A DNA stretch of 64,000 bases, taken from NCBI GenBank assembly GCA_030949995.1, contig JAUZRY010000087.1:1-64000 (forward strand), in the 5' to 3' direction. Each line of letters begins with the position of its first letter. Positions within the stretch are counted from its first letter, which is position 1. This stretch comes from Ardenticatenia bacterium (GTDB taxonomy: Bacteria > Chloroflexota > Anaerolineae > Ardenticatenales > Ardenticatenaceae). A model generated the notes under the pieces. It searched no databases. It had not been told where the DNA came from and saw nothing but the letters and a program-made list of their open reading frames with translations. This document shows, one piece after another, positions 22,556 through 26,914 of this stretch. The translations under genes and the position numbers were made by a program.

Positions 22556-24298
22556 TCAAGGGGCTCCCATTTCGTCAACTTCATCGAGTCGCTCTCCCCG
22601 CATCAGGCGCAGCGCAAGGGTGTAAGTCTGGTGTTGGGCGCGTGAGGTAGGCGTGTGGGCTGCCAAGTAGCGGGCGGCCGCGATGAGACAGTGGTCCCCT
22701 TCGGGGCGTGGTCCCCATTCGGCCGCTTGGCGGAAAGCGACTTCGACGGCTTGGATGGTGTGGAAGTCGCGGTCCTCGCACAACAGGAGACGGCCTAGCG
22801 TCGCCTGGAGGCATTTCCGGGAGCCGCCAGCTCTCAGGTACGCTGCTACCAGCGTGCTGGCCTCGTTCACGTGATCCCGCTGGTCAAAGACCTCTTGGAG
22901 ATCGGCCAAGGCACGGCGCGGATCGGAGACGGGATCGGGAGTGGGAAGCGGTGCCGGCGGCACGTTGAGGAAACGGTCCAAGTAGACACTCATGGCCGCG
23001 TCGAAGACGGCCCGCACCAGGTCGGCCGAAGGGAAGCGCTTAAGCCCTTGATGAACAGCATTTGCAAATGTCCACGTGTGCAGTGCTGTGTCCCAGTCGG
23101 TGAACTGGTTGGCCGTGCCGAAGTGAATCAGTCGCCGGGCGGCCGCGTAAGCCACGACTTGGGCCAACTTTGCCGGCGGACAACCGTCGGCAAGTGCTTC
23201 CAAGAGGCCGTCCACAATGGCCTGCGGATTATCGCCCAGAAGCACCTCGGTGAGCGTGTGGACGTCGTCCCACTCGGGTTGTTTTGGCGTGGTCATCAGG
23301 GCCGGCAGGCGTTCAAAGGCCGCCTCGAGCATGGCGACCAAATCCACCGGCGCGCGCCAGGCGCTGTGCTCTTCCATGCGCACGCCCCTGGCGTAGCCGG
23401 GCACTAAGCTGGTGAGCACTGGTGTCACGTCCTCGGGGGCCATTGCGGCAAGAGCTTCCAAGGCTTTGTTGGTGAAATCCAGGGGATGTCCCACGCTGAC
23501 ATACCGGTGGTCGGTGATGGCGGCGAAGAGCATGTCAGCCAACACGTGCAGTGGTGCTCCGACAGCCACTGCGGAGGCCACACAGCGTTCAGCCCCCTCG
23601 GCGTCTCGCACCTCGACGAACTTCCGGAACCACGCCTTGAGTGTAGCTTGGTCCGGGGGCACGCCGGGCAGTGGCTCGACGGTGAAGCGGGGCGGTTGGC
23701 CCTCACAATCCTCGGCCACAGCCGCCAACCCGTGGTAGAGCGCCAGGGGGCGATCCCCCTCGTCCAACAAGGTGTGCATGTTGTGGAAACAGGTGAGCAT
23801 GGTGAGTCCGGGCCCCCATCCGGCCGCACGGTAGCGGACTCCGAAGCGCACACCGTGGCGAAAGGCTTCCACGAGCGGAATGGAGAGGGCAGAGAGAGCT
23901 ATTGTCCCCTTGGCCAGGAGCAGGTCCAAGTTGCGCTCAAGCCCCCGGCGAAGGCGATTATGCGCTTGCTGGCGGGCATCGTGGCGCGGCGTGGGATTGA
24001 CCCACACCTCGTTGTCGCGCACCTCAACGGGGAAAGTGGGCACATCGTCAGCCCACAGGTCGAACGTGCCTCCGCTGCACACGTCGAACCGGGCGTGATG
24101 CCAGTGGCACGTGAGCAGTCCATCCTCGATCGTGCCGCGGTGGAGGGGAAAGCCCATGTGGGGACAACGGTTGTCGAGCGCGTAGACACCCATTTCGGTG
24201 AGCACGAGCAGCACCACCCGATGGCCCACGCGGCGCGAGAGCAGCGGCCGGGCTCGCAGTTCGTCCAAAGTCGCCACTTTCACAAAGGCATCTTCCAT
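22556..24298 (-). CDS. Rieske [2Fe-2S] protein with large unassigned C-terminal domain
   Basis: A 580-residue protein. ATG 24298 has AGGAGG six bases upstream; an ATG 17 codons earlier does not. Residues 5-110 are a Rieske domain with cluster ligands C45, H47 (CPHMGFPLHRG) and C64, H67 (CHWHHARFD), followed by FDLWADDVPTFPVEVRDNEVWV. The remaining 470 residues are mostly helical, and I do not recognise the family. They contain His/Asp-rich segments such as ITDHRYVSVGHPLDFTNKAL and RRLIHFGTANQFTDWDTALH, which could bind a second metal. The Rieske part resembles ring-hydroxylating ferredoxins and nitrite reductase small subunits. A redox role is likely; the reaction is unknown. Confidence 0.75.
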   Translation of the reverse strand: MEDAFVKVATLDELRARPLLSRRVGHRVVLLVLTEMGVYALDNRCPHMGFPLHRGTIEDGLLTCHWHHARFDVCSGGTFDLWADDVPTFPVEVRDNEVWVNPTPRHDARQQAHNRLRRGLERNLDLLLAKGTIALSALSIPLVEAFRHGVRFGVRYRAAGWGPGLTMLTCFHNMHTLLDEGDRPLALYHGLAAVAEDCEGQPPRFTVEPLPGVPPDQATLKAWFRKFVEVRDAEGAERCVASAVAVGAPLHVLADMLFAAITDHRYVSVGHPLDFTNKALEALAAMAPEDVTPVLTSLVPGYARGVRMEEHSAWRAPVDLVAMLEAAFERLPALMTTPKQPEWDDVHTLTEVLLGDNPQAIVDGLLEALADGCPPAKLAQVVAYAAARRLIHFGTANQFTDWDTALHTWTFANAVHQGLKRFPSADLVRAVFDAAMSVYLDRFLNVPPAPLPTPDPVSDPRRALADLQEVFDQRDHVNEASTLVAAYLRAGGSRKCLQATLGRLLLCEDRDFHTIQAVEVAFRQAAEWGPRPEGDHCLIAAARYLAAHTPTSRAQHQTYTLALRLMRGERLDEVDEMGAP

Positions 24299-24345: not shown

Positions 24346-24915
24346 TCACCGGCCCGCTGGCGATGCGCCACTTGTGGATGCCTTCTCGGGAAAGGTCTTG
24401 AGGAACTTGGCCACTTTAGGAGCGATAATGAGGCGACAGTAGGGGTGATCAGGATGACGGCGGAAGTAGTCGTGGTGGTACGGTTCTGCCTCGTAGAAGG
24501 CCGTCAGGGGAACAATCTCGGTCACGAAAGGGGCCGGCCACAGGCCAGACGCCTCGGCTTCGGCCTTGGAGGCCTCGGCCTCACGGCGTTGTTCCTCGTC
24601 GTGGTACAGGATGATGGAGCGATATTGGGGCCCGACATCATTGCCCTGCCGGTTGGGTGTGGTGGGGTCGTGGATGTGCCAGAAGATGGTGAGCAGATCA
24701 CGGTAAGTGATGAGCCGGGGATCGAAGGTGATTTGCACGACCTCGGCGTGACCGGTGGTTCCAGTACACACGTGTTCGTAGGTGGGGTTGGGCACATGGC
24801 CGCCAGCGTATCCCGGCACCACACTCACCACGCCCCGTACACGTTGGTACACAGCCTCCAGACACCAGAAACATCCTCCTCCCAATGTAGCTTGCTGATA
24901 CATGTCCTTACCCAT
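24346..24915 (-). CDS. msrA: Peptide methionine sulfoxide reductase MsrA
   Basis: Repairs methionine-S-sulfoxide in proteins using thioredoxin. [18 protein letters not shown] holds the catalytic Cys (residue 15) of the GCFWC motif. [26 protein letters not shown] and [23 protein letters not shown] are fully conserved, and YHHDYF follows. At 189 residues it is a normal single-domain MsrA. ATG at 24915 is preferred, 24903 is possible. It ends 47 bases before the Rieske gene start, so the two may form an oxidative-stress operon, and it diverges from the BatA-like gene. Confidence 0.92.
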
Positions 24916-24980
24916 TGGCCCTCGCCCCGGCCACATGGCGTCACTTCCCTCCGCCCGTCTTCGCCTTCGTGCCCCTGTTA

Positions 24981-24990
24981 AAGTATACTT
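24981..24990. promoter_or_regulatory. Palindromic -10 element between msrA and the BatA-like gene
   Basis: AAGTATACTT is its own reverse complement, so TATACT reads as a -10 box on both strands. The ATG of msrA is about 70 bases to the left and the BatA-like GTG is 47 bases to the right. A shared bidirectional promoter is plausible; -35 elements are weak on both sides. Confidence 0.45.
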
Positions 24991-25036
24991 ACTCCTGTCG
25001 TGGCGTGAAAAACGACGCGTTCCAGGAGGGTTGTCC

Positions 25037-26914
25037 GTGGGGTTTCTGGCACCAACTGCGCTGGCCCTGTTGACCCTAGCTCTGCCCATTCTTCTCATGT
25101 ATCTCCTCAAACGTCGCCGCGAGGAGGTGACTGTCTCCAGCACGCTGTTGTGGCATCACTTGATCCGCGATGTGGAGGCCAACGCCCCGTGGCAACGTCT
25201 GCGCCCTCACATTTTGCTCTTCCTCCAACTGTTGGCTCTGCTGGCCTTGGTGTTGGCCGCGGCCCGCCCCTTCGTGGCCGTGCCAACCGTTCGCGGCCGC
25301 CATCTCATTGTGGTTGTAGACACTTCGATCAGCATGGGTGCCCACAATGAGGAGGGGACAAGCCGGCTGGACGTGGCCCGCCAGCGCGCTCTGGTCCTCT
25401 TCGACGCGCTGCCCGCCGGCGGCCGGATGACCCTCATCAGGGGTGGAGGCAATGCCGATGTGCGTCTTGCCCAGGCGGAGGAGCGTGCGGCCCTGGAACG
25501 CGCTCTCCGGACATTGACCCCCTCAGCGCCCGACAGTGACATGACCGCAGCCCTCCACTTGGCCGCGGCCTTGGCGGCCCGTGACGAGGACGCCCAAGTG
25601 ATCCTCCTGAGCGACGGCGACATCCACGTGGAGCCAACAGCCCGCCAAGCAGTATCGGACATTGCCTTCACCTTCGAGTCGGTGGGCTCACCGGTCGAGA
25701 ACAGCGCCATCAGCAGCCTAGCCGTGCGCCCCCAGGGGCAAGGATTTTCCCTCTTCGTCCAAGTAACGCATTATGGCCGGTCACCTGTGGACCGCCGGCT
25801 GGTTGTGGAGACAGACAACCAACTCTTCTCGGCCTTGGATGTCACCTTGGCCCCCGGCGCTTCCGCCGATTACCTGTTCGACCTGCCACCTCAAACCAGA
25901 ACTGTGCACGTGCGCTTGGATCCGGCCGATGCCCTTCCGGCTGACGACGTTGCTTGGGCCACTGCTGTCCTTCCCGCGCCGCGCACTGTGCGCCTAGTTT
26001 CCGCCGGCAACCGCTTTCTGCAGGCCGCACTTAGCCTGTTGCCCAACGTCACCCTTGTGGTGGACCCGCTTCCGGCGCCTCCTCCAGACGAGCCGCCGAC
26101 GTTGACTGTGCTCGACGCGGGCTGGTCGGGTGACGCGCTGCCGGAGGGCAACGTGTGGCTCATCGCGCCCGCCCAGAGCGTCGGCACCATCGAGGTCACC
26201 GGCGTGATCAGCGCGCCGGTGCCTGTGGCCACCACGGCCGACGATCCCATTCTCCGCTTCGTGGACGTAAGCGACGTGGCCATCCTGGACGCTGTGCGCT
26301 CTGAGCTCCCCGGGTGGGCCAGGCCCGTTCTTGTGGATAGGCTTACCGGCGCGCCTCTCCTCTGGGTTGGCGAGGAGAGTGGCCGGCGCGTGGCCTTTTT
26401 GGCCTTTGACCTCCACAGGAGCGACCTGCCCCTGCGAGTCGCCTTTCCCCTGCTCGTCGCCAACCTCGTGAACGAGTTGACCGGGCCAGAAGCGCCCCAG
26501 GACGTAACCGCGCGGGTCGGGGAGCCCGTGCGCCTCGTCCCGCCGGCATCTGCTCAGCGTGCTACGGTCATTACTTCGGAGGGACGCCCCATTGAGCTCA
26601 CTCTCGGGAGCCGTGTGCCATCCTCCTTTGTGCCCACGAGCCCTGGCCTCTACACCATCCGGTGGGAGGGGGTTGAATCCCCGCCCATCCGGGTGGGTGT
26701 GAGTGTGCTCAACCCGCCGGAAAGCCGAGCCGGCGTGGGTGTTCCCAACCTAGTCGGCCGGGCAATCGCGCCCGAACGCGGGCCCAGCCGAGTGGGGCAA
26801 CGGGAATTCTGGCGTTGGGCCGCCGGCCTGGCCCTCCTCGCGCTGGTGGTGGAGTGGTTGATCGCGTACCGTCCTCACTTGTACGCCACCACACCGAAGG
26901 CCCGTGGGCGTTGA
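25037..26914 (+). CDS. BatA/VWA-domain membrane protein
   Basis: A 625-residue protein; the GTG start is set by AGGAGGG six bases upstream. The N-terminus ([26 protein letters not shown]) is the BatA N-terminal hairpin, with a second helix near 58-75. A von Willebrand A domain follows, with MIDAS DTSISM (95-100) and VILLSDGD. Middle and C-terminal parts are Ig-like and GATase-like, unassigned in detail. A last helix lies near 595-612. Proteins of this layout (Bat or YfbK-like aerotolerance group) usually sit with MoxR ATPases and DUF58 proteins; none is in this window. It overlaps the end of the convergent methyltransferase gene by 40 bases. Confidence 0.8.

Follow-up and report, generated by a model that had tools for sequence, protein, structure and literature searches.

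The product of a gene in the window (the whole 64,000-nucleotide stretch of Ardenticatenia bacterium contig JAUZRY010000087.1 that was analyzed) is, on balance, probably a mononuclear iron oxygenase that is fed by a Rieske domain and has a questin-oxidase-type catalytic domain, and its substrates would probably be redox-active cyclic compounds. Structure prediction shows a questin-oxidase-type helical fold for the C-terminal domain of the protein; the mononuclear iron, the electron flow from the Rieske cluster, the oxygenase chemistry, and the ring-type, redox-active substrates are what we infer. To our knowledge, Rieske oxygenases are normally taken to have a single catalytic fold, and a large “Rieske protein” family that apparently relies on a different fold would extend the range of enzymes known to be driven by a Rieske domain. 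No publication on a Rieske/questin-oxidase-like fusion was found in the portion of the open-licence literature that was available.

The Rieske-QO gene and its Rieske domain

The gene, designated Rieske-QO, occupies positions 22556..24298 of the minus strand, stop included, and encodes 580 amino acids. Its uninterrupted frame runs from an ATG at 24298, immediately preceded on its 5' side by the ribosome-binding sequence AGGAGG, to a stop ending at 22556, while the plus strand of the same interval carries stops. A chance open reading frame was dismissed because all 80 kept homologues match it over nearly the entire length at 51 to 86% identity. The fusion of a full Rieske motif to a helical remainder, proposed in a sequence-only reading, is real, as is the 580-residue minus-strand frame that encodes it.

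Residues 5 to 103 (23990..24286, minus strand) constitute a Rieske [2Fe−2S] domain, as indicated by PF00355 and PF13806 and by a match to the Rieske ferredoxin fold; the PF00355 match covers residues 6 to 80 with an E value of 1.1e-12. The cluster ligands, C45-x-H47...C64-x-x-H67 (24098..24166, minus strand), reside in the motifs C45-P-H47 and C64-H-W-H67 and are invariant in 81/81 and 54/54 aligned sequences, so that the Rieske center with two Cys and two His, noted earlier as intact, has all four of its ligands. A second Rieske-like stretch of the window's own genome (L082; G000:C89:5571-5918) is 33% identical over residues 3 to 118 and is read with two internal TGA codons.

Distribution of the family and a sister group

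Homologues were sought in one genome per species, and 80 near-full-length loci were kept. At least 584 of the 593 pattern-matching stretches scored as relatives, a count that may include other Rieske proteins because one of the patterns is the Rieske motif itself. According to their record titles, the kept loci belong to Chloroflexi, Cyanobacteria, Actinobacteria, Acidobacteria, Planctomycetota, Armatimonadota, NC10, and others. Matches were found in 9 of the 60 genomes around the window's own (itself included; one match, in G001, is a 34-residue fragment), in 11 of 346 genomes of the phylum to which the genome of locus L027 belongs, and in 6 of 244 genomes of the phylum of the cyanobacterium L007. 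The gene is also carried by 24 of 72,556 plasmid records, including those of haloarchaea, Priestia, Microvirga, and Paraburkholderia. The family is widespread in bacteria and on haloarchaeal plasmids and is labeled only “Rieske protein,” which is the sole annotation of the plasmid copies among the 20 of 24 matches listed. Its patchy spread and its presence on plasmids suggest horizontal gene transfer.

A search with a profile of the C-terminal domain, extended by a second search, revealed divergent actinobacterial proteins, seven of which form a sister group, here group II (L108, L109, L110, L122, L124, L125, and L127), with 20 to 31% identity to group I, to which the window protein belongs. 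Group II proteins also start with a Rieske domain, as seen in the three scanned by Pfam and in the ligands of 7/7. The duplicate loci L121, L123, and L126 were dropped from this count, and four actinobacterial Rieske proteins of another type (L145, L146, L147, and L149) were set aside. In these four proteins, an N-terminal Rieske domain is fused to a complete thiamine-pyrophosphate enzyme, with the N, M, and C parts of TPP_enzyme and the Rieske domain identified by Pfam in L145 and L149, and by likeness in L146 and L147. Another kind of fusion is seen in the 738-residue homologue at L013:3758-5971, which has three parts, the last of which is a guanylate-cyclase catalytic domain (PF00211, residues 583 to 734). 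The alignment used for conservation contains 47 group I and 7 group II proteins.

Predicted fold of the C-terminal domain

The rest of the protein had been described as an unassigned helical region of about 470 residues, a description that proved apt in length, in the helical character of the models, and in the lack of a Pfam family. When the whole window protein was scanned with Pfam and NCBIfam, only the Rieske part was placed, with no match over the C-terminal domain, and no Pfam family covered this domain in more than 4 of the 47 homologues. The full-length AlphaFold model, built with 47 sequences, has a mean pLDDT of 90.4, and that of the domain alone (residues 108 to 580; 35 sequences, from a domain alignment for which 37 homologues were chosen and L013, L060, and L066 were excluded) has a mean pLDDT of 90.6. 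We assign residues 108 to 575 (22574..23977, minus strand) to a helical questin-oxidase-like domain based on the latter model, whose best VIA match is BTG13 at Z 16.7.

With the full-length model, the top VIA row was BTG13 (7y3y; Z 18.3, rmsd 4.1, 327 aligned residues). With the domain-only model, the top six rows were all from the questin-oxidase family (Z 13.8 to 16.7, 322 to 339 residues), consisting of three BTG13 entries (Z 16.5 to 16.7; best rmsd 4.1 over 327 residues), the AflY-named dioxygenase 8yxs (Z 15.3), and two entries of the hydroquinone dioxygenase PaD (Z 13.8 to 13.9), and the next unrelated chain followed at Z 9.7 (102 residues). High VIA Z scores often arise by chance with helical models (typically 14 at best among five such models); the questin-oxidase match stands out from such scores because one family fills the top six rows and most of the domain is covered. 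Foldseek gave a weaker result on its own, with 8yxs first (E 0.012, probability 1.00) and no row below 0.001. An MgsA-type identity was also considered and rejected as a local helical likeness since only some quarter of the domain is involved: MgsA_C matched weakly in 4/47 members (best E 1.8e-4), and MgsA fragments reached VIA Z scores of 9.3 to 9.7 over 102 to 122 residues.

The N-terminal Rieske domain would also be expected if the protein were a canonical Rieske non-heme iron oxygenase whose helix-grip catalytic domain had diverged. We regard this explanation as very improbable, as strands of three or more residues are lacking beyond residue 100 of the model and the catalytic family of ring-hydroxylase alpha subunits is absent among the Pfam matches of the 47 members.

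Comparison of sequences gave a different picture from that of the folds. The questin-oxidase profile PF14027 matched 0/47 members at E values of up to 1, although it does detect the proteins at loci L092, L096, and L164. There was no PF14027 match in the window's own genome (0/1), in 201 genomes of the window's phylum (0/201), or in 9 genomes holding homologues (0/9), searches in which the controls were silent too. Five of 296 genomes from the phylum of the L027 genome do contain PF14027, and a protein search with one of these finds returned the same 5 genomes out of 346. Profile-profile comparison by hhalign against a bacterial questin-oxidase set gave a local E value of 0.15 in the first comparison, local values of 0.083 and 0.012 and forced global values of 0.79 and 0.41 with two profiles and three settings, and local values of 0.041 and 0.049 among the matches listed with two profiles and two settings. 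None of these values, taken alone, makes homology with the questin-oxidase family significant at the sequence level. A clear C-terminal match to a characterized family, named beforehand as the outcome that would speak against an unassigned domain, was thus obtained for the fold and not for the sequence (PF14027 in 0/47 members; weak profile comparisons).

Candidate metal-site residues

The “His/Asp-rich segments” pointed out in the sequence-only reading were loosely worded as such; what the alignment contains instead is three invariant histidines, H271, H407, and H513, and several invariant Asp/Glu residues in 81/81 aligned sequences. In the conservation alignment, H271 (23486..23488, minus strand) is found in 47/47 group I and 7/7 group II proteins, and the same is true of K278 (23465..23467, minus strand), an invariant Lys seven residues further along the same helix (267 to 283). 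The motif H407-x-x-T410 (23069..23080, minus strand) provides a candidate metal ligand and a nearby Thr, with His in 54/54 proteins and Thr in 52/54 (Ser in 2). H513-x-x-Q516 (22751..22762, minus strand) appears to be the counterpart of BTG13 H374-x-x-K377; H513 is invariant in the 53/53 proteins of both groups that have a letter there, and position 516 is Gln in 46/46 group I letters and Lys in 7/7 group II proteins. H264 (23507..23509, minus strand), a possible extra ligand, is His in 42/47 group I and 7/7 group II proteins.

These residues were compared with nine bacterial questin-oxidase proteins, comprising five finds of the PF14027 genome search in the phylum of the L027 genome and four plasmid proteins. 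Four histidines are invariant in 9/9 of them, namely N-H32, T-H126, H251-x-x-T254, and H325 (L096 numbering), and the position three residues past the last His is Lys in 7/9 and Ser in 2/9. The BTG13 sequence contains H158-P-L-I-Q and D-D-G-H374-x-x-K377. We take the BTG13 iron to be bound by four His and a carboxylated lysine, the latter presumably being the Lys of H-x-x-K. On the basis of motifs, order, and fold ranges, H271 was paired with L096 H126 and BTG13 H158, H407-x-x-T410 with L096 H251-x-x-T254 (in our alignment T299 of BTG13, the residue mutated in 7y3y), and H513-x-x-Q516 with L096 H325-x-x-K328 and BTG13 H374/K377. Unprompted, hhalign put the HxxT and last His motifs in register, at local E values of 0.012 to 0.15. 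Two registers are possible for the His pair, as a maximum-accuracy run with the combined profile lined up H264/H271 with H126/H133 and a run with group II alone placed H271 with H126. The pairing of H271 with H126 and BTG13 H158 was adopted because of the group II run, the motif H-G/P-x-I, and the near-constant offset to BTG13, which is 114 where the VIA range of the full-length model begins, 113 at H271, and 111 at T410.

The earlier suggestion of a second metal site in an oxygenase-like enzyme is supported by the predicted likeness to non-heme iron dioxygenases and by the conserved histidines. This site differs from that of the questin-oxidase family, since N173 replaces the first His of the family (near BTG13 H58; L096 H32) in 45/47 group I proteins and Gln replaces K377. 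The same two replacements in group I would suit a noncatalytic scaffold or ligand-binding module and, with it, a redox sensor or electron carrier, and the extension of L013 into a guanylate-cyclase domain is what a sensor might have. We consider such a role improbable in view of the three His, the several Asp/Glu, and K278 that are invariant across phyla and of the Lys that group II retains. For the Rieske-fed oxygenase that we favor, the Gln/Lys difference between the sister groups offers a ready test of the role of the unusual lysine at the iron.

Gene neighborhood

The window gene is flanked upstream by msrA (PF01625; ORF 24346-25143, minus strand) and downstream by a lexA-like gene (TIGR00498, 127.2 bits; cut-off, 110.95). 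A hint at oxidative stress had been drawn from msrA and was not borne out, as an msrA relative occurs in 0/80 loci; the locus of the 86%-identical gene, L023, also lacks one and is the only locus of the 80 with lexA. Clustering of 776 ORFs from the 80 loci revealed clade-local synteny, with rsgA-like genes in 14 loci and dnaX-like genes in 13 (named by eye), and no common partner gene; nor was a reductase or substrate gene consistently adjacent in the loci compared.

Group II differs in this respect from the loci above. A SoxR gene (NCBIfam equivalog, 212.5 bits; cut-off, 116.9) divergently adjoins 6/7 group II genes, the exception being L124, and neither the window nor any of the 80 group I loci gave a SoxR match. 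The SoxR search also matched two partial loci, L143 and L112 (L144 being the same locus as L112). In one of five actinobacterial questin-oxidase loci, SoxR (L094:762-1193) is divergent from a questin-oxidase gene without a Rieske domain, a pairing that ties the questin-oxidase family to redox-cycling compounds in bacteria. The six SoxR-linked group II proteins are related to each other and do not amount to six independent events, while L094 represents a different protein group. SoxR is a sensor of redox-cycling compounds, quinones and phenazines among them, and in view of the linked members, redox-active compounds would be the first substrates to try. Inverted repeats (ACTTCAA...TTGAAGT) were recognized by eye between SoxR and the gene in six group II loci, with a related one in the intergenic stretch of L094. 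We claim them as nothing more than inverted repeats because an 18-base SoxR-box consensus showed no excess over shuffled sequence, 1.32 Mb of which gave 29 matches at no more than 5 mismatches, about the same number as the real loci.

Other neighbors are confined to small sets of genomes, and the window gene has neither the SoxR nor the following SufR-like regulator beside it. In three cyanobacterial loci (L018:972-1628, L037:5216-5866, and L058:5243-5893), a SufR-like iron-sulfur regulator gene is divergent upstream of the group I gene; the L058 score of 138.4 bits is below the 178.8 cut-off, and a fourth SufR-like copy is located further off in L011. In two NC10-type loci (L064:1837-2871 and L078:4952-5986; PF00494 scanned in L078), the end of a squalene/phytoene-synthase gene overlaps the Rieske-QO start. 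This could hint at an isoprenoid substrate in those two genomes, and we set it aside as a functional clue because two loci are too few. The questin-oxidase genes of two Rhizobium plasmids (L164:966-3451 and L165:2363-4968) adjoin an NAD(P)/FAD-dependent oxidoreductase gene, and in both proteins the lysine of H-x-x-K is replaced by Ser.

The SoxR linkage also bears on the source of electrons. The fungal relatives are considered to take electrons from a reduced substrate. The window protein might likewise be a dioxygenase that receives all electrons at the metal from its substrate, with the Rieske domain pre-reducing a quinone substrate or keeping the iron ferrous. The fold match to hydroquinone dioxygenase and BTG13 is consistent with this, as is the occurrence of SoxR next to both the group II genes and a relative that lacks the Rieske fusion. 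It is nevertheless unlikely, given that every one of the 54 aligned members retains the Rieske ligands and that an unfused group I or II member was not among the finds of our searches, which were not designed to exclude such members.

Proposed mechanism and comparison with known systems

As a Rieske-fed oxygenase, the protein would receive electrons at its N-terminal Rieske [2Fe−2S] cluster from an NAD(P)H-dependent reductase that is presumably encoded elsewhere and pass them on to the helical C-terminal domain, where a single non-heme metal, most likely iron, would be bound. Candidate ligands of this metal are H271, H407, and H513, the positions of which are conserved in the questin-oxidase family, and probably H264. 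The reduced iron would then bind O2 and oxygenate a cyclic redox-active substrate, possibly a quinone, a hydroquinone, or a related ring. The fused Rieske domain would thereby free the enzyme from the need for substrate-derived electrons, and in group II, SoxR would probably turn the gene on in the presence of redox-cycling compounds. If this holds true, these proteins are the bacterial equivalents, supplied with electrons from outside, of the fungal enzymes that open quinone rings. It is tempting, and to us somewhat short of an even chance, to see in them a second, independently assembled class of Rieske oxygenases, in which the lysine was exchanged for Gln and a His was moved (H264), substrate-driven quinone-ring cleavage gave way to externally driven oxygenation, and the genes spread horizontally and on plasmids in bacteria and haloarchaea, with one branch coming under SoxR control.

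Three known systems resemble the window protein in part. Residues ~1 to 107 are nearest in both sequence and fold to stand-alone Rieske ferredoxins (naphthalene dioxygenase ferredoxin 2qpz and BphA3), which are separate subunits, whereas in the window protein the carrier is fused to a putative oxygenase. Canonical Rieske non-heme iron oxygenases, such as those acting on dicamba and phthalate, likewise have an N-terminal Rieske domain that is presumed to feed a mononuclear iron, and the CxH...CxxH motif of their alpha subunits is present in the window protein as in the 54/54 aligned members. Their Rieske part superposes (dicamba 3gke, Z 14.4 over 103 residues), but the match to the window model stops at residue 105 to 106, and their catalytic domain has a helix-grip fold with a 2-His-1-carboxylate iron, while the corresponding part of the window protein is predicted to be helical.

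The questin-oxidase family (PF14027; BTG13 7y3w/7y3x/7y3y, 8yxs, and PaD 8z4q) has its overall helical fold in common with the predicted window domain, as well as the HxxT motif. Three of the family's four His have counterparts in the window protein (H271, H407, and H513) and the first is missing; the lysine of H-x-x-K is Gln516 in group I, although even within the family this lysine varies (Ser in 2/9 bacterial members), and H264 and K278 are extra in the window protein, which also adds the N-terminal Rieske domain. By the Pfam profile and the two residue comparisons, of the four His and of the lysine, the window protein is not a member of PF14027, but it most likely works like a member with a built-in electron supply.
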